Source: Sphaerolaimus hirsutus
Taxonomy: Eukaryota; Nematoda; Chromadorea; Monhysterida; Sphaerolaimidae
Direction of reading: 5' to 3'
NCBI GenBank assembly: GCA_964036195.1
Contig: OZ038456.1
Coordinates: 22,235,792 to 22,299,791 of the forward strand
DNA: 64,000 nt
Below are positions 4,313 to 64,000 of the stretch, piece by piece. The translations under genes were made by a program, and so were the position numbers. The notes under the pieces were generated by a model. It had not been told where the DNA came from. It did no database searches and worked only from the letters and a program-made list of their open reading frames with translations. Position 1 is the stretch's first letter; the number at the start of each line of letters is the position of its first letter.

Positions 4313-5631
4313 TAACGATGGCAAAAAAAGATTCGAAAATTCGAAAACATTTTCGAATTTTCGAATTTTTTCATAATTTTCGAATTTTTATTTCACCCCT
4401 TGAAAAAACACTTAAAAATCGATTTTTTTTCTTCAAAAAATTCGAAAATTCATAAATTCGAAAATTCGAAAATAATTTTCGAATTTTTCAGGAAATGCAA
4501 GGTCACAAAATGCATTCTTACGTTACATGTGATATTTCAATCAACAATTGATATGAGGTGTGTCTGAGAAACAGTAATCTAACAAATAAAAACGTCAAAA
4601 AAGCGGACATGTGTTAATTGTAAAGACATTCTAAAATCATGTAAAAATAAGATCTAAAATGAAAAGTTGTGTTGTTGTTGCAAGTTGCTGAACAGAGCAC
4701 TGTCCAACAAGTCCATGCGACATGTTGCCGCTTCCAGTTCCTGACCCCGTAAAATGTCAGGTAGACTTTAGAGTGTCGAATGTCATGCAACGTGTCAAAG
4801 TCATGGAAAATGCTCTGGAAAATGGCAAACTTTTTTGAACAAACCCCCGAATCCTACAAATCCTCGATTAAACCCCCCTTGAATTTACTCCCCTTGAACT
4901 AACCCCCCCTCAAAATGAGCTGGGGAAATACTACCCCCCTGGAATGAAGTAAATACATCATGTATTCAATGTAGATGATGTATTAATTGCAACCAAGGTG
5001 CATCGCAACTACACATAGAGACTAGTTTGTGTAGCGATGCACGTTGAGTCATAATATATCCTGTTTGAATGCATTTATTACATGTTTTGGGTACGTAAAT
5101 GACTACTCTTTACTACAATACTTACAAAAATTTCTGACGAAAAAATAAACCCCACTCGAATTAACCCCCCTCAAATTTTGATGACAAAATAACAAACCCC
5201 CATGGGGGTGTTTCGAGGTAATACGGTATATCAAATCACAGTGAAAATACCCACTCAGAGGGTTCATTTTTTCAGAGTGGTCGCTCTGACCTGGCAGTAT
5301 TTAGAGGGGAGGGGCTAATTCAAAGGGGGTGGTGGGGGATATTTTGAAGAAATACGGTAATTTTAAAAAGCGATTCAACCATTAAAACTATATGAATACT
5401 GCATTCGAAGCTTCAAATTCAAAATTTCTTCAAGAAAATTCGAAAATTATTTCAAAAAATTCAAAAACTACCCAAAAAAATTCGAAAATTGCCAAAAAAG
5501 ATTCGAAAATTCAAAAATTCGAAAATTAAATTCGAAATTCGAAAATTAATTTGAGGAAAAATTCGAAAATTCATTGGAGAAAAAACACTTAAAAATTTAA
5601 ATACTTTTTTTCGGGGTGTTTGCCATCGTTA
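4313..5631. mobile_element. hAT-like element, TTCGAAAA family (copy 1)
   Basis: The tips are TAACGATGGCAAA at the left and TTTGCCATCGTTA at the right. A perfect 8-bp target duplication GCACCAAG lies at 4305-4312 and 5632-5639. Dense ATTCGAAAATTCG motifs occupy both subterminal regions. Inside are a fragment of the 168-bp family (about 4739-4831) and a fold-back (4851-5226). Confidence 0.85.
4851..5226. mobile_element. Fold-back element, GATGTACATCATGTA subfamily, decayed left end
   Basis: It contains TTAACCCCCCTCAAA blocks, the TACACATAGA...TTTGTGTAGCGAT stem and the right end GAGGTAATACGG followed by TA. The interior matches 18837-19266, 25665-26048, 48170-48498 and 51270-51678. Confidence 0.65.
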
Positions 5632-11850: not shown

Positions 11851-12757
11851 CAGAGTTGGAAAAACGTATTTACGTTTACCCGAAATACCCGGTTATTTGG
11901 GTATTTATACTTATGTTTACGTTTACGTTTTCCAAAATACCATTACGTTTTGTTACGTTTTCCTCACCAAAATACCCGGGTACTGGGGAAAAGGTAATAA
12001 AACTTGTCATCATTCACACATGCACATGTTCAAATGGGCCGCACCACATGCAGCCAACAATATTCTTGTGTTTTTGCATAAATGTAAATATTTAACATAA
12101 ACGTAAAAAGTGACTGCATGCTTGCACTTACACATGGAATACTGGCTAGATATTCATAAATGTGTTCAAATGCTGATCACTTTTTGTTTGTTTGTGTAGC
12201 CTTGTCGTTATAATTTTTTTGTGATGAATTCTGACGACGCACTTGCAACAACTGTGCAAAGCACATGTTTTGAAACTGGCAGGGCGAGTGCAAGCTCTGG
12301 TGCTAATCCCAGACTCTGTAAGATGCCCTGAAAAATGTAAAATTTCATGCAAATGTCAAAACTTATGTAAAATGCTCAGCAAAATGAGAAAGATTTGTCA
12401 CCTTCCAGGGCATTTTGCATGACTTTAGACACTTTGCATGTCATTAGACATTTTCAAAACATTTTACAGGGTCTGGGACTCCCCCAGAATCACGTATGTA
12501 GTTAGATTTCGCCACACTTAAAACAGAAAGTGGTGCAGATGGAGCGACTTACCCATCTAAAGGTGAAAATAATGGTGTTTTCGAAAGCACAATGGCAAAT
12601 ACTGTGTGTAAGTATAAATTTTACGTTTACTATTCTTTTTACATATTCCTTGGTATTTTAAAAATACCTTACGTTTTAGTATTTATACTTTTGATTTGGA
12701 AAAGGTATTTACGTTTACGTTTACGTTTTCCAAAAATACCAGTATTTGCACCAACCT
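11851..12757. mobile_element. hAT-like element, TTTACGTTTACG family
   Basis: The left tip is CAGAGTTGGAAAAACG, followed by TATTTACGTTTACCCG. The right side has TTTACGTTTACGTTTTCC and ends near TTGCACCAACCTC. No clean target duplication, so the right tip has probably decayed. A solo 168-family element lies inside (12302-12492). Confidence 0.65.
12302..12492. mobile_element. Solo copy of the 168-bp palindromic family
   Basis: TAATCCCAGACTCTGTAA at the left and TTTTACAGGGTCTGGGACTC at the right, with AAATGTCAAAAC...GACTTTAGACACTTTGCATG inside. Confidence 0.65.
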
Positions 12758-17454: not shown

Positions 17455-18349
17455 CCGTATTTCCTCGAAATACCCCCAGGGGCCAGATTTAATACTCCCT
17501 ACAGATTTGTAGGGTAGGGCGTACGCCCGACAGATTTTTTTAAGTTCAGCCGCATCGACGCACATGCACCGAGAGCAAGGCGGTTCGTAAAATACACGAA
17601 ACCATCCCTTAAGGTCGCCGATATTGAAATATGATGCATATCGCTTTGATTTTGGCCCGGAAATCACGATTTCGTCATTTCTTGGCCGTCTGCCAATTCG
17701 TTTTTTATTTTATTTTGTCGGGCGGGTTACTCGCATAAGACGCGCTTTTGTACGCTCGTGCATGCATTTCTTTCTTGTTGCTGCCCTCATGGTTTCGGTT
17801 GTAGGCAGTGAACACTAAAAAAGTGACCACCTGACTACACAAAAGCGCGACTTTTGCGAGTAACCCGCCCGACAAAATAAAATAAAAAACGAATTGGCCG
17901 ACGGCCGAGACATGACGAAATCACGATTTCCGTGCCAAATTCGAAGTGATATACGTCATATTGCAATATCGGCGACCTTAAGGGATGGTTTCGTATATTT
18001 TACGAACCGCCTTGCTCTCGGTGCATGTGCGTCGATGCGGCTAAACTTTAAAAAATCTGTCGGGCGTACGCCCTACCCTACAAATCTGTAGGGAGAATTA
18101 AATCTGGCCCCAGGGGGTTTATTTTTTCAGAGTGGAAATTTTGAGAGAAAAACATGAAAAATGCAACATAAACCACCATTTATAAGTTTTTACAGCCTTA
18201 TATTTATAAGGATGTAGATGGTATAAACGATGTTCTAACATAACACAGTAAGTGCTTTGAACGTCTGTTATGCATTTCCCGGACCACAAATACATAGTGC
18301 CGATTTTGAGGGGGGGTATTTCGAGGGGGGGTATTTCGAGGAAATACGG
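17455..18349. mobile_element. Fold-back element with a second palindrome inside
   Basis: The ends are CCGTATTTCCTCGAAATACC and GGTATTTCGAGGAAATACGG, with TA duplication at 17453-17454 and 18350-18351. The core GTAGATGGTATAAACGATGT lies right of the inner palindrome 17478-18112. Confidence 0.85.
17478..18112. repeat. Palindrome with GGCCAGATTTAAT ends
   Basis: Arms of about 300 bp (TGTAGGGTAGGGCGTACGCC, GGTTACTCGCATAAG, CCAATTCG) are inverted around a short spacer containing GTGAACACTAAAAAAGTGAC. It recurs at 58652-59287 at the same position of another fold-back. Confidence 0.8.
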
Positions 18350-24341: not shown

Positions 24342-25411
24342 TGTACACCTCTGATCACCCACAGGTAGACACTTCGAAAATTTTGATAAAAGAATGTGCC
24401 GCGGGCGAACTGTAGCTCAGCGGCCAACTTCGGCACATACAAAAGTAAGCCCCAACATTTGTTTCGAAGTTCATATAGGTGACCCCCGTGAAATCAGCTG
24501 TGGGCTGAGTAAACGGCCCACAGTTTTTTTTATACAACTTTGGGGTGATCACTCGCACATGGACACGACTCATAACTGACTGAAATCATGTCTCTCAAGG
24601 CCGTTTTTCGACATGAAATACAGAACAGGCTCATGGTGAAGTGCCAAACGCCACTTCAACGGCATTTTTACCATTAAAAATGAGATAATGACGTTTCATT
24701 TTGTAGTGCTTTGTACCGCGGAACGCACCCGACCAGAATTTTTATTGGATAACTTTCTAATGCTGCGAAATGTGATCAGGAGAAAAGTTCCACATGAAAG
24801 AGGCATTGTTTTTAAACTGAAGGCATTGTTTTTAAACTTACTGCGCGGAAATACACACCCTCCCACATTTGAGAAAACGCGTGGTGAAATTTTAAGGAGT
24901 CACTAAATTTTGAACCAGGAAGCAAATTAGTAGTGTGGAAAATATAGCGAGGTGTTTTAAATTACATTTAAATCACATTTCGCAGCGTTAGAAAGTTCTC
25001 CGATAAAAATTCTGGTTGGGTGCGTTCCGCGGTACAAAGCACTACAAAATGAATACGTCATTATCTCATTTTTAAGGGTAAAAATGCCGTTGAAGTGACG
25101 TTTGGCACTTCGCCATGAGCCTGTTCTGAATTTCATGCCTAAACACGGCCTTGAAAGACATGATTTCAGTCAGTTATGAGTCATGTTCACGAGTGAGTGA
25201 TCACTCCAAAGTTGTATTAAAAAAACTGTGGGCCGTTTACTCGGCCCACAGCTGATTTCACGGGGGTCACCTATATGAACTTTTAAACAAATGTTGGGGC
25301 TTACTTTTGTATGTGCCGAAGTTGGCCGTCAAGCTACAGTTCGCCCGCGGCACATTCTTTTATCAAAATTTTCGAAGTGTCTACGTATGGGTGATCAGAG
25401 GTGGTGTGTAC
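24342..25411. repeat. 1.07-kb palindrome with arms of about 420 bp
   Basis: TGTACACCTCTGATCACCCA at the left is mirrored at the right (GGGTGATCAGAGGTG). The arms share CGCGGGCGAACTGTAGCT, GGCCCACAG, GTGCCAAACGTC-like and GCGGAACGCACCC sequence. The spacer is about 200 bp. It fits a long-inverted-repeat transposon or an inverted duplication. Confidence 0.85.
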
Positions 25412-29510: not shown

Positions 29511-29980
29511 TTTAAGTCACACTGCATGTTTTGTATGGATACATTAGTGATTTTGAAGGTTATGGCGGTGGCGGGTGGGGACATTATGAAAACAGCAACC
29601 AATTTTGTTCATTTGATATGTTGCAAATAATTTTGGCTTGTTGCCAAAAAACCCATCTCAACGTTATCAGGATGCAGGAGCTTCAAAATGTTGTAAAATC
29701 AATCAAAATTCATTCAAACTAACAAAAATATTCTGTCCAGTAGATGCATGTCGCTTGGCATAGGGAATGTTCAAACGGAATAAAACATTAGTGCAAAAAT
29801 TTCCTTTTTTGTTAGTTGCTCCTTTTCGCAGTATTTTTGAAAAACCGGTTTTCAATTTGCCCGGTATTTATGTCACTGTGAAATTGTCTTATCTGCTGCG
29901 AACAGATGGTGACATTGTGGGCGTTGTTGTGCTGTCGTTTTTTTAGCATTGTTGTGTTGTGCTGTCGTCGTTTTGCAGTG

Positions 29981-31492
29981 TCTGGAAGTCCTGTAAAAGG
30001 CCCTGTAAAATGTCAAATGTCATGCAAAGTGTCAAAAGTCATGGAAAATGCCTGCAAAATGGTGACTCGGCTGCCATTTTGCAGGGCATTTTACATGACT
30101 TTTGACACTTTGCATGACATTTGACATTATACAGGGCATTTTACAGTGTCTGGAAGTCCTGTAACAGACCCTGTAAGATGTCAAATGTCATGCAAAGTGT
30201 CAAAAGTCATGGAAAATGCCTGCAAAATGGTGACTCGGTTGCCATTTTGTTGGGCATTTCCCATGACTTTTGACACTTTGCATGACATTTCACATTTTAC
30301 AGGGCATTTTACAGTGTCTGGAAGTCCTGTAAAAGGCCCTGTAAAATGTCAAATGTCATGCAAAGTGTCAAAAGTCATGGAAAATGCCTGCAAAATGGTG
30401 ACTCGGTTGCCATTTTGCAGGGCATTTTACATGACTTTTGACACTTTGCATGACATTTCACAATTTACAGGGCATTTTACAGTGTCTGGAAGTCCTGTAA
30501 AATGCCCTGTAAAATGTCAAATGTCATGCAAAGTGTCAAAAGTCGTGGAAAATGCCTGCAAAATGGTGACTCGGTTGCCATTTTGCAGGGCATTTTACAT
30601 GACTTTTGACACTTTGCATGACATTTGACATTATACAGGGCATTTTACAGTGTCTGGAAGTCCTGTAAAAGGCCCTGTAAAATGTCAAATGTCATGCAAA
30701 GTGTCAAAAGTCATGGAAAATGCCTGCAAAATGGTGACTCGGTTGCCATTTTGCAGGGCATTTTACATGACTTTTGATACTTTGCATGACATTTGATATT
30801 ATACAGGGCATTTTACAGTGTCTGGAAGTCCTGTAAAAGGCCCTGTAAAATGTCAAATGTCATGCAAAGTGTCAAAAGTCATAGAAAATGCCTGCAAAAT
30901 GGTGACTCGGTTGCCATTTTGCTGGGCATTTCCCATGACTTTTGACACTTTGCATGACATTTCACATTTTACAGGGCATTTTACAGTGTCTGGAAGTCCT
31001 GTAAAAGGCCCTGTAAAATGTCAAATGTCATGCAAAGTGTCAAAAGTCATGGAAAATGCCTGCAAAATGGTGACTCGGTTGCCATTTTGCAGGGCATTTT
31101 ACATGACTTTTGACACTTTGCATGACATTTGACATTATACAGGGCATTTTACAGTGTCTGGAAGTCCTGTAAAAGGCCCTGTAAAATGTCAAATGTCATG
31201 CAAAGTGTCAAAAGTCATGGAAAATGCCTGCAAAATGGTGACTCGGTTGCCATTTTGCTGGGCATTTCCCATGACTTTTGACACTTTGCATGACATTTCA
31301 CATTTTACAGGGCATTTTACAGTGTCTGGAAGTCCTGTAAAAGGCCCTGTAAAATGTCAAATGTCATGCAAAGTGTCAAAAGTCATGGAAAATGCCTGCA
31401 AAATGGTGACCCGGTTGCCATTTTGCAGGGCATTTTACATGACTTTTGACACTTTGCATGACATTTGACATTATACAGGGCATTTTACAGTG
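29981..31492. repeat. 168-bp palindromic satellite, 9 units
   Basis: Units begin at TCTGGAAGTCCTGTAA at 29981, 30149, 30317, 30485, 30653, 30821, 30989, 31157 and 31325, all exactly 168 bp. Each unit is self-complementary (TGTCATGCAAAGTGTCAAAA against TTTTGACACTTTGCATGACA). Two types alternate in part of the array (TTTACATGACTTTTG and TTCCCATGACTTTTG), forming 336-bp dimers. Confidence 0.95.
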
Positions 31493-31679
31493 TCTGGAAG
31501 TCCTTGGAAAAATAAAAAGCGACTTTGGAAACCATTTTCACTTTCAAAACGGAAAAGTGTCAGAAATTTGAAGCAAAACCTGAAATCTGAAATCTTAACA
31601 AAAACGGACGAAAATCAAAGTAATCGAGCATTTTAATATCAGAGCATCAAACATTCCGCGGAACCCCAAAATTATTCAA

Positions 31680-34650: not shown

Positions 34651-35116
34651 TAAGTCGCACTGCATGTTTTGTATGGATACATTAGTGATTTTGAAGGTTA
34701 TGGCGGTGGCGGGTGGGGACATTATGAAAACAGCAACCAATTTTGTTCATTTGATGTTGCAAATAATTTTGGCTTGTTGCCAAAAAACCCATCTCAACGT
34801 TATCAGGATGCAGGAGCTTCAAAATGTTGTAAAATCAATCAAAATTCATTCAAACTAACAAAAATATTCTGTCCAGTAGATGCATGTCGCTTGGCATAGG
34901 GAATGTTCAAACGGAATAAAACATTAGTGCAAAAATTTCCTTTTTTGTTAGTTGCTCCTTTTCGCAGTATTTTTGAAAAACCGGTTTTCAATTTGCCCGG
35001 TATTTATGTCACTGTGAAATTGTCTTATCTGCTGCGAACAGATGGTGACATTGTGGGCGTTGTTGTGCTGTCGTTTTTTTAGCATTGTTGTGTTGTGCTG
35101 TCGTCGTTTTGCAGTG

Positions 35117-36460
35117 TCTGGAAGTCCAGTAAAAGGCCCTGTAAAATGTCAAATGTCATGCAAAGTGTCAAAAGTCATGGAAAATGCCTGCAAAATGGTG
35201 ACTCGGCTGCCATTTTGCAGGGCATTTTACATGACTTTTGACACTTTGCATGACATTTGACATTATACAGGGCATTTTACAGTGTCTGGAAGTCCTGTAA
35301 CAGACCCTGTAAGATGTCAAATGTCATGCAAAGTGTCAAAAGTCATGGAAAATGCCTGCAAAAAGGTGACTCGGTTGCCATTTTGTTGGGCATTTCCCAT
35401 GACTTTTGACACTTTGCATGACATTTCACATTTTACAGGGCATTTTACAGTGTCTGGAAGTCCTGTAAAATGCCCTGTAAAATGTCAAATGTCATGCAAA
35501 GTGTCAAAAGTCATGGAAAATGCCTGCAAAATGGTGACTCGGTTGCCATTTTGCAGGGCATTTTACATGACTTTTGACACTTTGCATGACATTTCACAAT
35601 TTACAGGGCATTTTACAGTGTCTGGAAGTCCTGTAAAATGCCCTGTAAAATGTCAAATGTCATGCAAAGTGTCAAAAGTGGTGGAAAATGCCTGCAAAAT
35701 GGTGACTCGGTTGCCATTTTGCAGGGCATTTTACATGACTTTTGACACTTTGCATGACATTTGACATTATACAGGGCATTTTACAGTGTCTGGAAGTCCT
35801 GTAAAAGGCCCTGTAAAATGTCAAATGTCATGCAAAGTGTCAAAAGTCATGGAAAATGCCTGCAAAATGGTGACTTGGTTGCCATTTTGCTGGGCATTTC
35901 CCATGACTTTTGACACTTTGCATGACATTTCACATTTTACAGGGCATTTTACAGTGTCTGGAAGTCCTGTAAAAGGCCCTGTAAAATGTCAAATGTCATG
36001 CAAAGTGTCAAAAGTCATGGAAAATGCCTGCAAAATGGTGACTCGGTTGCCATTTTGCAGGGCATTTTACATGACTTTTGACACTTTGCATGACATTTGA
36101 CATTATACAGGGCATTTTACAGTGTCTGGAAGTCCTGTAAAAGGCCCTGTAAAATGTCAAATGTCATGCAAAGTGTCAAAAGTCATGGAAAATGCCTGCA
36201 AAATGGTGACTCGGTTGCCATTTTGCTGGGCATTTCCCATGACTTTTGACACTTTGCATGACATTTCACATTTTACAGGGCATTTTACAGTGTCTGGAAG
36301 TCCTGTAAAAGGCCCTATAAAATGTCAAATGTCATGCAAAGTGTCAAAAGTTATGGAAAATGCCTGCAAAATGGTGACTCGGTTGCCATTTTGCAGGGCA
36401 TTTTACATGACTTTTGACACTTTGCATGACATTTGACATTATACAGGGCATTTTACAGTG
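35117..36460. repeat. 168-bp palindromic satellite, 8 units
   Basis: Units start at 35117, 35285, 35453, 35621, 35789, 35957, 36125 and 36293. Order of unit types matches copy 1 except that the unit at 30653-30820 (with TTGATATTATACAGG) is missing here. Confidence 0.95.
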
Positions 36461-36654
36461 TCTGGAAGTCCTTGGAAAAATAAAAAGCGACTTTGGAAAC
36501 CATTTTCACTTTCAAAACGGAAAAGTGTCAGAAATTTGAAGCAAAACCTGAAACCTGAAATCTTAACAAAAACGGACGAAAATCAAAGTAATCGAGCATT
36601 TTAATATCAGAGCATCAAACATTCCGCGGAACCCCAAAATTATTCAAAAATCGT

Positions 36655-44760: not shown

Positions 44761-44777
44761 TTTCCATCGAATAATGT

Positions 44778-45290
44778 CTAAAATATCAATTTTGATATGA
44801 AACTTTAAACATATTTTTCAAAAAATTTGCGCGTGAGTGCGCATTTCCACACCACATGCATGATATATTGTGGATTGGCTTGGCATATGTATTGAATGGT
44901 GTTAAAACTCAAATTTCTTATTACCATACAATGTGCCTGCACACACTAGTTTTCCCATGAAATCTCAAAAACTCATAAATGAGCTTTGAATGTGTTTGAG
45001 TTTTCCACAATGAGGTGGCCATCAACTACAGTTGAAGGAGATTAAAAATGACTCATTGTGGAAAACTCAAACACATTCAAAGCTCATTTATGAGTTTTCG
45101 AGATTTCATGGGAAAACTAGTGTGTGCAGGCACATTGTATGGTAATAAGAAATTTGAGTTTCAACACCATTCAATACATATGCCAAGCCAATCCACAATA
45201 TATCATGCATGTGGTGTGGAAATGCACACTCACGCGCAAATTTTTTGAAAAATATGTTTAAAATTTCATATCAAAATTGATATTTTAGAC
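44778..45290. repeat. 513-bp near-perfect palindrome centred on a CACACACTAGTT element
   Basis: The CACACACTAGTTTTCCCATG / CATGGGAAAACTAGTGTGTG element (about 44930-45140) is flanked by inverted copies of about 150 bp of outside sequence (TGATATATTGTGGATTGGCT and its complement), so symmetry extends well past the element. Confidence 0.85.
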
Positions 45291-45850
45291 AGGTTATGGT
45301 AGTGTAGTGTTTTTAGGTTATGGTAATGTAGTGTCAAAATGGATTGCATATTTTAAATCAGTGCAATTTGAAACCCACAAATGCATCATCTCACAATTTC
45401 TAATTTTTTAGCCCCAGGGGTTCTGCTACCTAAAGGTTATGGTAATGTAGTGTCAAAATGGAGTACATACCGTATTTGCTTGAATAATCCCCCTGGGGAT
45501 TATTATTTCGTCAGACATTTTTGAGGGGGGAACTATTTGAGGGGGGAGGGAATTATTCAAGGGGGGGGGGAATTATTATTTCGTCAAAATTTTCAAGCAT
45601 GTTTCCATCAACTCATTTCTCAAAACATGCCTTATAAACACAATAACATGCCATTTTTGTTAAAATTAGATAGAACAAATTAATCACATCTTTAAAGGGG
45701 GGATTATTCGAGGGGGGAATTATTATTTCCTTACTCATCTTACAGGGGGGGGGGATTATTCGAGGGGGGAATTATTCAAGGGGGGAACTATTCAAGCAAA
45801 TACAGTATTTGAAACACTGCAATTAGAAACCCGCAAATGCATCATTTCAT
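45291..45850. repeat. Isolated patch of the 115-bp satellite, split by a fold-back
   Basis: GGTTATGGTAATGTAGTGTC and GAAACCCACAAATGCATCAT units; the fold-back 45470-45805 is inserted at GAGTACATA. Confidence 0.8.
45470..45805. mobile_element. Fold-back element, CCGTATTTGCTTGAATAA subfamily (copy 3)
   Basis: 336 bp, TA at 45468-45469 and 45806-45807. Without it the satellite reads GAGTACA-TA-TTTGAAACACTGC, matching intact units GAGTGCATATTTCAAATC. Confidence 0.85.
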
Positions 45851-47416: not shown

Positions 47417-47647
47417 CTATTTTCCCTTGCCCCTGACAGGTTGTACCGCGGCCAAAACCACTGGAAGCACGAACAGACCATGAAAAAGACCCAAAACTAT
47501 GGCAAATGGTAGCATAAATAGATAAACGTCCGTGGCATAACTGTGCACAAAATAAAGACCCATTACAAAAAAAGTTGTAGTGGCCCCCGCTTGCAGCATG
47601 GGGCCTCCAATTGAACAAAAGCATTTGTGCAGACGTTCCACTGTGGT
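47417..47647 (-). CDS. Patched-related protein, exon E (TM11-TM12 and stop)
   Basis: The exon starts after acceptor CCCTCATTTCAG in phase 0, matching the donor of exon D. It is 231 bp: 76 codons and a TAG. The product begins TTVERLHKCFCSIGGPML, then AGATTTFFVMGLYFV (TM11) and FMLPFAIVLGLFHGLFVLPV (TM12), with the IGGPMLQ and LHGL-x-x-LPV-type motifs expected at the end of the second RND half. The short polar tail VRGKGK then ends at the stop, which suits a last exon; a further small exon spliced from CCT|GTCAGG cannot be excluded. The intron to exon D is about 8.6 kb and is filled with mobile elements. Confidence 0.85.
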   Translation of the reverse strand, partial: TTVERLHKCFCSIGGPMLQAGATTTFFVMGLYFVHSYATDVYLFMLPFAIVLGLFHGLFVLPVVLAAVQPVRGKGK

Positions 47648-54412: not shown

Positions 54413-55422
54413 TAACGATGGCAAACCCTCCAAAAAAAGTATTTAGATCTTTAAGTGTTTTTTCCAAAATGAATTTTCGAATTTTCGAATTTTTCCTGAC
54501 ATTAATTTTCGAATTTCAAATTTAATTTTCAAATTTTTGAATTTTCGAATCTTTTTTGACAATTTTCGAATTTTTTGGGCTATTTTTCGAATTTTTTCAA
54601 ATTATTTTCGATTTTTTTTGGAAAAATATTGAATCTGAAGCTTTAAACACAGAATTCGGACTGTTTTGGAAGTGGGTGACACACTGAGTGTACTCAGTGC
54701 ATACAGTGCTAACTTCACAAGATACGGGTACTTCTCAAACCAATACTCGAAACCACTCTTATACTCCAGCGACATTACACCTTACAATGAAATCTACAAT
54801 ATCCCATCTGAATAAAAGGACAAACATAACATTTTTTTAATTATATTATTCAAATTGCTTCTTTTTTTAATTTTGGTTCTTTTATTCAGATGGGATATGG
54901 TAGATTTCATTGTAAGGTGTGATGTGGCTGGAGTTTATCTTTGATCACATCCCTTTTACTTATGTGTGCAGTTCTTATGGGCAGTCCCAGACACCTGTAA
55001 AATGCTCTGTGAAATGTGAAGTGTTATGCACATTGTCTAAAGTCATGGAAATGCTGTGGAAAATTTCAAATATGTTAGCCATTTTCCAGGGCATTTTCAT
55101 AACTTTTGACACTTGCAAGACATTTCACATTATACATTTCAATGTTTTTGGACGTTTTTTTGTTTTGTTTCGCTATTTCATACGCACCGCGTACCATTTG
55201 TCGTTTTATTTAGCACGTTGAATCTATGAGTGCGTTTTTTTGCCTTGAGATCCCTAAAAAATTCGAAAAGTATTTTCGAATTTTTGAATTTTTGAATTTT
55301 TTGAAAAATAAATCGATTTTTAAGTGTTTTTTCTAGGGGTGAAACAAAAATTCGAAAATTCCGAAAAAATTCAAAAATTCGAAAAGTTTTTCAAATTTTC
55401 AAATCTTTTTTTGCCATCGTTA
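54413..55422. mobile_element. hAT-like element, TTCGAAAA family (copy 3)
   Basis: The tips are TAACGATGGCAAAC and TTTTTGCCATCGTTA. The target duplication is CTCATTTC/CTCGTTTC (7 of 8) at 54405-54412 and 55423-55430. Inside are a palindromic ACTCCAG element (54764-54940) and a 168-family element (54973-55135). Confidence 0.85.
54764..54940. mobile_element. ACTCCAGCGACATTACACC palindrome (copy 1)
   Basis: TACTCCAGCGACATTACACC and ATATCCCATCTGAATAAAAG on the left are inverted on the right. The loop is AT-rich. Confidence 0.7.
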
Positions 55423-56204: not shown

Positions 56205-56658
56205 CTCGCTTTTTATATCCTTATAATAATGATAAGGAATATGTCCGGAGAAATCGATGGAAAATCCAATGCACACAATCACAGCCACGGTGGTGATGAT
56301 GTCCAAGTCCAAGCCGAACACGACCATGTAGCCGACCAGGGGCAGTCCCGCACCCTGGACAAGGCCCTGTGAAATGTCAAATGACGTGAAAAGTGTCAAA
56401 AAACATGTGAAATGCACTGGGAAATGACATGTAAACGGTTGCCATTTTACCGGGCATTTTACACGACTTAATACACTTTGCATGACATTTGAAATTCTAC
56501 AGGGCACTTTCCAGGGTGCGGGATTGGCACCAGGCCAAACACGATGCTCGCCAATCCAACTACTGCGGCTACGATTGGCCAGAAGGATGCGAAAAATATC
56601 ACGCAAACTAGCAGCATTGCCAGCATCGCCAGGCCGATCGATGACGCCGTGATGCTAC
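56205..56658 (-). CDS. Patched-related protein, exon D (TM8-TM10), interrupted by a 194-bp insertion
   Basis: Acceptor CTCCCCAG|GT, donor GAG|GTGAGA. The first part encodes TM8 and most of TM9 (SIGLAMLAMLLVCVIFFAS, then PIVAAVVGLASIVFGLV); the second part continues GYMVVFGLDLD and TM10 with GFSIDFSGHI, the diagnostic GFS-x-DF motif of Patched-related proteins. Between VFGLV and GYMVV sits a 188-bp palindromic element (56341-56528) plus a duplicated ACCAGG. With those 194 bp removed the exon is 260 bp (2+258), exactly the length needed to join exon C (phase 1) and exon E (phase 0). Read straight through, the upstream frame meets a TAA inside the element about 11 codons past its edge. The allele is therefore broken or relies on splicing within the element. 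Confidence 0.85.
56341..56528. mobile_element. Palindromic element (168-bp family) inside exon D
   Basis: The terminal inverted repeats are 18 bp with two mismatches (GGCAGTCCCGCACCCTGG against GCCAATCCCGCACCCTGG). They are flanked by a perfect 6-bp direct repeat ACCAGG at 56335-56340 and 56529-56534. The interior is the palindromic CCTGTGAAATGTCAAATG...CATGACATTTGAAATTCTA sequence also seen in the satellite arrays at 29981 and 35117. On the gene's strand the two halves supply a donor-like CCCT|GTAGAA at 56500 and an acceptor-like TTTCACAG|GG ending at 56367. Removing 134 bp between them would keep the reading frame and leave 20 extra codons. Confidence 0.85.
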
Positions 56659-58188: not shown

Positions 58189-58493
58189 TCATGGAAGAAA
58201 TCTGATCCGCGTAAATCCCCAAATCCTCATAGACGGTCACATTGAATTCCGGATAACTATCGGCTATATTTCGCCAATTTTCCAGCAACCTCACTCTGGT
58301 GGTCCAGTCAGTTGCGTTGTGAAATCCAGTGCGAAAAATAAACGCGCTAACGCAAGTACCACTCGAAGAAAAAGTATTCGTCAAATTAAAAGTATAAAAA
58401 GTATCGTCGGATACTCTGCAGGCGGTTTGATTCACGTGGACACTGTGCCTCCAGCGGCGATATTGGGGAGTGCCCATAAATGCGGGAAGCAAA
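58189..58493 (-). CDS. Patched-related protein, exon C (second extracellular loop)
   Basis: The exon is 305 bp (1+303+1), with acceptor CAACTTTTCAG and donor ATGA|GTTTGT. The product starts LLPAFMGTPQYRRWRHSV and ends NVTVYEDLGIYADQISSM. Tracts 'LPxF...P-Y-R-x-W', paired cysteines, N-glycosylation sequons (NQT, NLT, NAT, NVT), 'R-x-x-E-x-W-R-x-I-A' and the final 'DQ' are hallmarks of the large loop just before TM8 in Patched-related proteins. A further in-frame acceptor-like site lies about 20 bp upstream, but its phase does not fit exon B. The domain is intact, with no stop or frameshift. Confidence 0.85.
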
Positions 58494-59287: not shown

Positions 59288-59894
59288 GCCCCAGATTTGA
59301 TTGGGCAGATTATCCTTGAGAGGGAGGACATGACGGGCGTGTCTGGCAATTCGAGATTTAATTGGACAGGCATGCCCTCGCCCGCCCGCCCGCCCTTTTT
59401 TTGCCCAGAACCGCTCAAATTCGCTCCATTTTGAAAACTGTGACCTTCATAATCATTATTCTCATTGTTATACATCGTTATATACTTATTTTTTATATAT
59501 TTATGGCGATTTTAAAATGTTTGGCCGGCTGCCAAGAACTATCTCCGATTTTCCTTTTTCTTTTCGGGAGTAAAATCCCTCCCAACCCGCTCGTTGCGCC
59601 AGGCACCTGACATCCGCCACCCGACTGCCAGACATATCGAGATTTAATTGCGTGCCGGGCGGCAGCTGTCAGGCGCCTGGCGGTATAACGATGAGAATAG
59701 CGATTATTATGGTCACAGTTTTCAAAATGGAGCGAATTTGAGCGATTTTGGGCAAAAAATGGGGGGGGGGAAATCGCTCATAATTTGCTACACGTAAATA
59801 GATTGTTGCAGAGCGATTTGGGGGGGGGGGTCAGGAGATAGTTGCGAAAAAATTTGCCTCGGGATAGATAGATAGCAGATCGGCATCCGACAGC

Positions 59895-60025
59895 TGTCCC
59901 AAACCCTGTACAAAACCCTGTAAAGTGTAAAATTCCCTGTAAAATGTCATGTGTCATGTAGAAGGCCCTGTAAAATGTAAAATGTCATGTAAAAGACCCT
60001 GTAAAATGTCTGATGTAATGGAACA
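59895..60025. mobile_element. 168-family fragment
   Basis: CCCAAACCCTGTACAAAACC and repeated CCCTGTAAAATGTCATG steps; the right half is missing. Confidence 0.55.
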
Positions 60026-61783: not shown

Positions 61784-61939
61784 TTGTATACAAAATGAAC
61801 TCCATCAGGATTCTTGTTGAAAAATGACAAATAAATGAAGTAATCTCTTAGCCACAATTGAGTAGAGGGCCTTCCAATAGACTTTTCAGAGTGTTCGAAT
61901 TTGTACACCATATCGTCGAATTTTTGTATACGGTCCTTG
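61784..61939 (-). CDS. Patched-related protein, exon B (second extracellular loop)
   Basis: The exon is 156 bp, with acceptor TTTGTTTTCAG and donor AA|GTTGGT. It reads from KDRIQKFDDMVYKFEHSEKS through an STQLWLRDYFIYLSFF motif to GVHFVY. The element 'acidic/basic helix, then ST-x-x-WL-x-x-Y' is typical of the loop after TM7 in Patched-related proteins. Joined to exon A it gives VNNPGDFRD-KDRIQ, and joined to exon C it gives GVHFVYN-LLPAF, both with matching phases (2 and 2). The donor abuts a fold-back fragment (about 61735-61777) that forms the first bases of the intron. The intron to exon A is 1.76 kb and holds the GCGCC element 62091-63016. Confidence 0.8.
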
Positions 61940-63699: not shown

Positions 63700-64000
63700 T
63701 CACGAAAATCGCCTGGATTATTGACGAGTATCGAAATCAATCTGCCCTCTCTGTATTCATACTCATACTGAAACTTTGTGAATTTATACAAAAGGCTATC
63801 TTTGGGCATGATTTTATTGTCAGACATATCAGTTTTTAATTGCGTAATTCCAATTGCAGCGCCAGTATAATATATAATTAAAAGAACAATTGTGAGTGCT
63901 CTCGCCCGATTACTGCACAGAAATTCACAGTATTTTATAAGCCATGATTTTGAGTCATTTTTATATGACGACTGGGTTATTTTTATTGGTAGAGGAATGT
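63700..64000 (-). CDS. Patched-related protein, exon A (TM7 region; continues past the window edge)
   Basis: This exon is open to the right edge of the window. It encodes a hydrophilic stretch, a membrane segment (core ALTIVLLIIYYTGAAIGI), then a region ending in VNNPGDFR. The pattern of a helix, then G-x-x-x-L-K-T-D, then MPKDS-L and an aromatic-rich stretch before a beta-strand-like RLISILV matches the start of the second half (TM7 and the beginning of the second extracellular loop) of Patched-related/PTCHD RND-family membrane proteins. Two overlapping donors occur (GTGAGTGAGT). The downstream one leaves phase 2, which is what the next exon needs, so I end the exon there; the upstream one would end at 63704 in the wrong phase. 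The codons upstream of the helix are open, but an acceptor or start may lie beyond the window. The family call rests on remembered motifs, not a search. Confidence 0.8.

Follow-up and report, generated by a model that had tools for sequence, protein, structure and literature searches.

A palindromic transposon copy in a patched-related gene probably belongs to a family of exactly removed introners

A conserved transmembrane exon of a patched-related gene carries an insert that probably belongs to a family of palindromic, non-autonomous DNA transposons acting as introners, in that the MITE would be removed exactly, as an intron. Copies of this family recur in the coding sequence of unrelated genes, and subtracting the element restores the reading frame unchanged in four gene families. 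The window, by which we mean the whole stretch of 64,000 nucleotides that was analyzed (C9:22235792-22299791), belongs to a genome of 348 Mb in 762 contigs.

In a protein similarity search, the minus strand of the window was recognized as the second half of a patched-related (PTR), sterol-sensing-domain gene. Among the named relatives, a protein of Strongyloides stercoralis ranks first (30% identity, E 1.7e-42), and the next is a clam protein (E 1.7e-6). A profile search returned chiefly nematode proteins, and the matches to patched-related proteins include the conserved GLFHGL block. Judging by these similarities, the patched-related gene is probably that of a nematode, or possibly of a close relative of nematodes. 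When four single exon pieces were compared with Pfam, Patched was not matched, and only weak unrelated matches were obtained. The preliminary description had stated that the other exons are intact, and within the window they are indeed open as modelled; two more exon blocks lie outside the window, after exons A to E. The other modelled introns of the gene are GT-AG. The features of the gene and of the insert are given below in gene order, with transmembrane segments (TM) numbered by analogy with patched-type proteins.

63700 to 63998, minus strand: exon A of the patched-related gene, its 5' end as modelled and provisional
61784 to 61939, minus strand: exon B of the patched-related gene
58189 to 58493, minus strand: exon C of the patched-related gene
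56205 to 56658, minus strand: exon D of the patched-related gene, insert included (454 bp)
56531 to 56658, minus strand: 5' part of host exon D, with TM8 and the first half of TM9
56531 to 56533, minus strand: 5' copy of the target CTG, which remains in the exon
56337 to 56530, minus strand: segment that exact excision would remove, GTGCCAATCC...CTGCCCCTG, 194 nt, the element plus one CTG copy
56340 to 56530, minus strand: the MITE proper, palindromic, 191 bp, with near-inverted ends GTGCCAATCCCGCACCCTGG versus GGGCAGTCCCGCACCCTGG
56337 to 56339, minus strand: 3' copy of the target CTG; the removed segment thus ends in TG, not AG
56205 to 56336, minus strand: 3' part of host exon D, with the second half of TM9 and TM10 with GFSIDFSGH
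47417 to 47647, minus strand: exon E of the patched-related gene, the last, stop codon included

Without the 194 extra nucleotides, which lie within TM9, exon D is 260 bp long and keeps its phase with exons C (58493-58189) and E (47647-47417), as the preliminary description had claimed. Skipping of exon D was rejected, since in our own reading of the exon model it would shift the frame, the phase being 1 at the end of exon C but 0 at the start of exon E. The codons VFGL/V/GYMVV flanking the insert, said from the start to belong together, are uninterrupted in 10 of 10 homologues in a first alignment. They are likewise continuous in a second alignment, in which the insert is absent from all 49 covering homologues (52 aligned, three not covering; two of the 49 only partly aligned at the site). 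The view of a mobile palindromic element in a conserved exon is supported. The idea that the insert is conserved coding sequence, which orthologues sharing it would have indicated, was rejected on account of its in-frame stops and its absence from the same 49 homologues.

The element is short (191 bp), bounded by inverted repeats and present in many copies (40 places scored of 4041 first-look candidates), all of which are features of a MITE. Folded as DNA, it reaches -55.7 kcal/mol compared to -25.0 +/- 3.3 kcal/mol for 200 shuffles (z -9.3), indicating a hairpin. Both the 18-bp terminal inverted repeats and the perfect ACCAGG repeat described earlier were found: the ends agree at 16 of 18 positions by our own count, and ACCAGG occurs at 56335-56340 and 56529-56534. 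The target duplication, however, is more plausibly just 3 bp long (CTG, as seen on the gene strand), because only the CTG before GT is common to all seven insertions considered below, and the neighboring C and GT of the 6-mer would be supplied by the element's own ends. A 6-bp duplication was thus discarded in favor of 3 bp plus element ends.

Elsewhere in the window, tandem arrays at 29971-31614 and 35107-36582 are built from a 168-bp unit that matches most of the MITE at 77-82% identity and in the same orientation; in these arrays the MITE has apparently turned into a satellite. A protein search with the translated 168-bp satellite returned nothing at E 0.001 among 767 candidates. On the plus strand, a further family copy at 12300-12487 has exact GT..AG ends after CTG, with flanks that are possibly coding, and a related palindromic element on the minus strand at 1435-1604 reads CAG/GTGGCAG...CCCCAG/ with GT-AG at its edges; coding flanks were sought at these two places and could not be demonstrated. 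Truncated or degenerate relatives of the element are located at 54979-55136, 4766-4834 and 59893-60010, and other long inverted repeats with more than 90% complementarity, possibly other foldback elements, at 44775-45291, 24346-25403 and 17472-18118.

Eight of the 40 scored places were read together with their flanks. These are the places closest to the window copy, a choice that may favor exonic ones, and they represent seven independent insertions (L001 and L002 being the PTR pair). Six of the eight places, or five of the seven insertions, lie within exons recognized through homology, and all of these share one orientation; the same-strand identities are PTR (twice), a nicotinic receptor, GH63, OATP and DOP1. 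GTGCCA opens the element at every one of the eight places and is always preceded by CTG. The strand on which the element starts with GTGCCA is open on both sides, in a phase fitting complete removal, in all eight cases; other frames are open in places too, and at L007 the plus-strand frames, of 72 and 74 codons, are open as well, so that homology was taken as the deciding criterion. The common orientation corresponds to a two-sided p of 0.06 for the five homology-identified insertions, calculated by hand, and to p 0.016 for seven of seven if L004 and L005 are included, which gave no Pfam match and lie between open frames only.

Removing the element end to end fits the homologues without a gap in PTR, the nicotinic receptor, glucosidase I and OATP. 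At the nicotinic receptor (L008, junction at C14:5947568), the left Pfam match ends at position 130 (residue 59 of 60) and the right one begins at 133, with one split-codon residue between them; joined by X, the two sides align with the nAChR alpha-7 structure over 69 residues without a gap (E 1.2e-23), X standing opposite W. At glucosidase I (GH63, L006, junction at C7:23562224), Pfam position 462 is followed by 464, and the joined sequence aligns without a gap to the glucosidase I structure 5mhf (E 4.2e-17), with X again opposite W; the junction codon at both of these sites is TGG. At the OATP transporter (L007, junction at C15:1800278), 36 residues fall on 36 Pfam positions across X, and the alignment to the SLCO1B3 structure (E 4.5e-15) has no gap, X being opposite T. 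L003 resembles DOP1 (5.6e-10) in an alignment that has a length difference.

GT stands at the start of the element at eight of eight loci, and the 5' target copy is CTG in seven of seven insertions. The 3' copy is more variable. CTG is found on both sides in four insertions, which end in TG (L001/L002, L004, L007 and L008), and CTG is followed by CAG in the three that end in AG (L003, L005 and L006). L003 to L008 are 88-94% identical to one another, with RNA folds of -128 to -151 kcal/mol, and are apparently young copies, while the PTR copies are 81-83% identical to them and have RNA folds of -88 and -89 kcal/mol.

The place closest to the window element, C9:22336251-22336452, is 99% identical to it; the other 38 of the 40 scored places reach at most 83%. 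It belongs to a second PTR gene 44 kb away (L009/L010, C9:22332436-22339934), which is on the same strand, keeps all five exons and carries the same insertion, and whose introns align only partially to those of the window gene. Between the two inserts there is a single substitution, together with two length changes of one base each. An assembly error, named beforehand as a finding that would overturn the claim, is unlikely, as two loci share the insertion and each has its own private changes. Over 590 codons, the genes differ by 31 synonymous changes per 417.5 sites and 25 non-synonymous changes per 1349.5 sites (dN/dS 0.24, Fisher 2e-7), a ratio that spans all the time since duplication; for the 416 codons of exons A to E only, dN/dS is 0.27 (bootstrap 0.14-0.49). 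Exon D shows three synonymous and no non-synonymous changes. The tract formed by exon D, the element and some 100 bp of intron is only about 1% diverged, compared to 4-17% in the flanking 100-bp bins, and exon C has one 100-bp bin without any divergence. The element has also changed less than synonymous sites have (p 7e-4 with two substitutions counted). Because the exon D tract is so alike and the element falls below synonymous divergence, the insertion may have spread late by gene conversion and may be younger than the duplication. The sharing of the insertion by two genes with constrained coding divergence nevertheless fits poorly with an assembly error or a merely recent break.

Under the introner reading, the element would insert into coding exons at CTG on the gene strand and duplicate this target. 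As it begins with GT, a donor would arise immediately behind the first CTG, while the second copy would become the 3' end of the removed segment and, where it reads CAG, would complete a normal GT-AG intron. The transcript would lose the element end to end, leaving the protein unchanged, and in the window PTR gene the 3' end would still be TG. We infer that removal occurs, that the spliceosome carries it out on the RNA, that CAG is derived from CTG, and that the hairpin assists where the end is TG; copies ending in TG would either be tolerated by the worm with the help of the hairpin or not be removed. A more specific account, which we regard as possible but somewhat doubtful, is that transposon-derived introns in this worm's lineage are removed exactly even though many end in TG, with a long hairpin joining the ends, and that AG is gained later, when a single T of the duplicated target mutates to A. 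Several observations weigh against the introner reading. Four of the seven insertions, including that in the window, end in TG, and according to passages of PMC2374985 TG does not serve as a constitutive acceptor in human, where TG acceptors occur only next to an AG site. GTGCCA scores low as a donor (-3.16 in a rough, approximate matrix), the orientation by homology amounts to five of five insertions (p 0.06), and the places read are the most window-like and maybe enriched in exons.

The preliminary description had proposed that splicing takes place within the element, by pairs that leave 20, 10 or 6 extra in-frame codons in the window copy, an explanation to which we give very little credence. 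In the range tested, 26 GT-AG pairs leave the frame of the window copy open, one of them (56530 to 56355) adding six codons, but inserts shuffled as a control have 19.2 +/- 10.7 such pairs, and 76 of 300 reach 26. By splice matrices that are rough approximations, 93 of the 300 reach the best score, and 54 have a pair removing exactly 194 nt. The internal GT-AG options of the element are at chance level. A pair that takes out exactly 194 nt, said earlier not to exist, is present in the window as well (56560 to 56367) and would swap ten host codons for ten element codons. Over a wider range, the window copy has 46 open pairs and the second PTR copy 33. The 14 that are homologous and open in both all use two host acceptors, which would delete TM10; none of these shared pairs has its acceptor within the element. 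Exact GT..TG removal from end to end keeps the frame open in both, along with TM9 and TM10. Moreover, internal AGs leave differing phases across the eight loci, and extra residues would land in conserved ungapped blocks. Tolerance of the element by splicing thus holds in its general form, by the family pattern, but not through the internal pairs proposed: whole removal is favored because the other genes fit their homologues by complete removal.

A more serious competitor, in our judgment still unlikely, is that the exonic insertions break genes, so that the PTR pair and the other genes would be dead or weakened alleles, recent or present in one haplotype, and the codon fit would reflect clean transposition, since every clean insertion fits exactly once subtracted. 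The youth of L003 to L008 and the poor quality of TG ends as acceptors (passages of PMC2374985) agree with this, and the low divergence of the exon D tract permits a late spread by gene conversion. The earlier suggestion of a recent, gene-breaking or heterozygous insertion is weakened, however, by the presence of the same insertion, with private changes, in two gene copies under coding constraint, with exclusively synonymous changes in exon D. Low divergence is also found outside exon D, in the exon C bin, and in a genome of 348 Mb six of the eight places lie in exons of five unrelated gene families in one orientation. AG at the 3' copy in three insertions is what selection for splicing would favor. 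Precise somatic excision at the DNA level, like that of ciliate internal eliminated sequences, would need no splice sites and would render the TG ends of four insertions irrelevant, and the preservation of TM9 and TM10 by end-to-end removal in both PTR copies agrees with it. We nonetheless consider it highly improbable, as DNA excision does not need the single orientation relative to the gene seen in all five homology-identified insertions, and three of seven insertions have a 3' AG. We know of no somatic DNA excision of such sequences in nematodes.

Regarding removal by splicing as the favored reading, a worm precedent may be mentioned: Rushforth and Anderson reportedly described in 1996 that C. 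elegans Tc1 is spliced out of mutant pre-mRNAs, and this removal is said to use sites near the insert and often to be imprecise. Tc1 shares with the window family that splicing would free a worm gene of a transposon, whereas removal of the window family would be exact at the element ends. According to passages of Gozashti et al. 2022 (PMC9860276), many introners belong to the non-autonomous DNA transposons, have inverted repeats and duplicate a short target, and one kind carries its 5' splice site but relies for the 3' site on the sequence into which it inserts (Fig. 2C). The window family would resemble this kind in having its own GT and taking its 3' end from the target, and is unlike the introners described there in that four of seven insertions end in TG. 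The same passages report a survey of 3,325 genomes in which, as far as animals and land plants are concerned, introners turned up in no more than two groups, each of them animal; the string 'nematod' is absent from the main text. We found no report of a nematode introner in the titles and passages of the literature searched, with subscription papers mostly outside its scope.

Passages of PMC7789003 describe introner elements of Amoebophrya whose inverted repeats form hairpins, whose direct repeats at the exon edges measure 3-5 nt and whose ends are non-canonical, and propose that the hairpin helps splicing. The window family shares the hairpin, the short direct repeats and the non-canonical ends; Amoebophrya, in contrast, is a dinoflagellate with varied splice motifs, whereas here a single family with a fixed GTGCCA start is found in an animal gene with GT-AG introns. 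For the origin of the element, the NuwaI group of the PHIS superfamily offers a lead, by target duplication and ends alone. NuwaI elements have a CWG duplication and ends usually starting with GGG, and they occur in animals only; the hosts named in passages of PMC4482050 are fish, a beetle, a crustacean, a mollusc and an anthozoan, with nematodes absent. In the window family, CTG on both sides in four of seven insertions, and CTG followed by CAG in three, may correspond to a CWG duplication, and one end reads CAG/GGGCAG, but the other end begins with GTG.

How new introns arise has long been debated, and introners rank among the foremost explanations. A nematode-like family whose copies are young, whose target is defined and whose 3' ends occur as both TG and AG would allow intron birth to be followed stepwise in an animal, and it would test whether TG works as a constitutive acceptor. 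If TG-ended copies are indeed removed exactly and AG is gained later, the family would exemplify, in an animal, structure-assisted splicing at a non-AG end or, with lower probability, excision from the DNA, and it would display intron birth before and after maturation of the acceptor.
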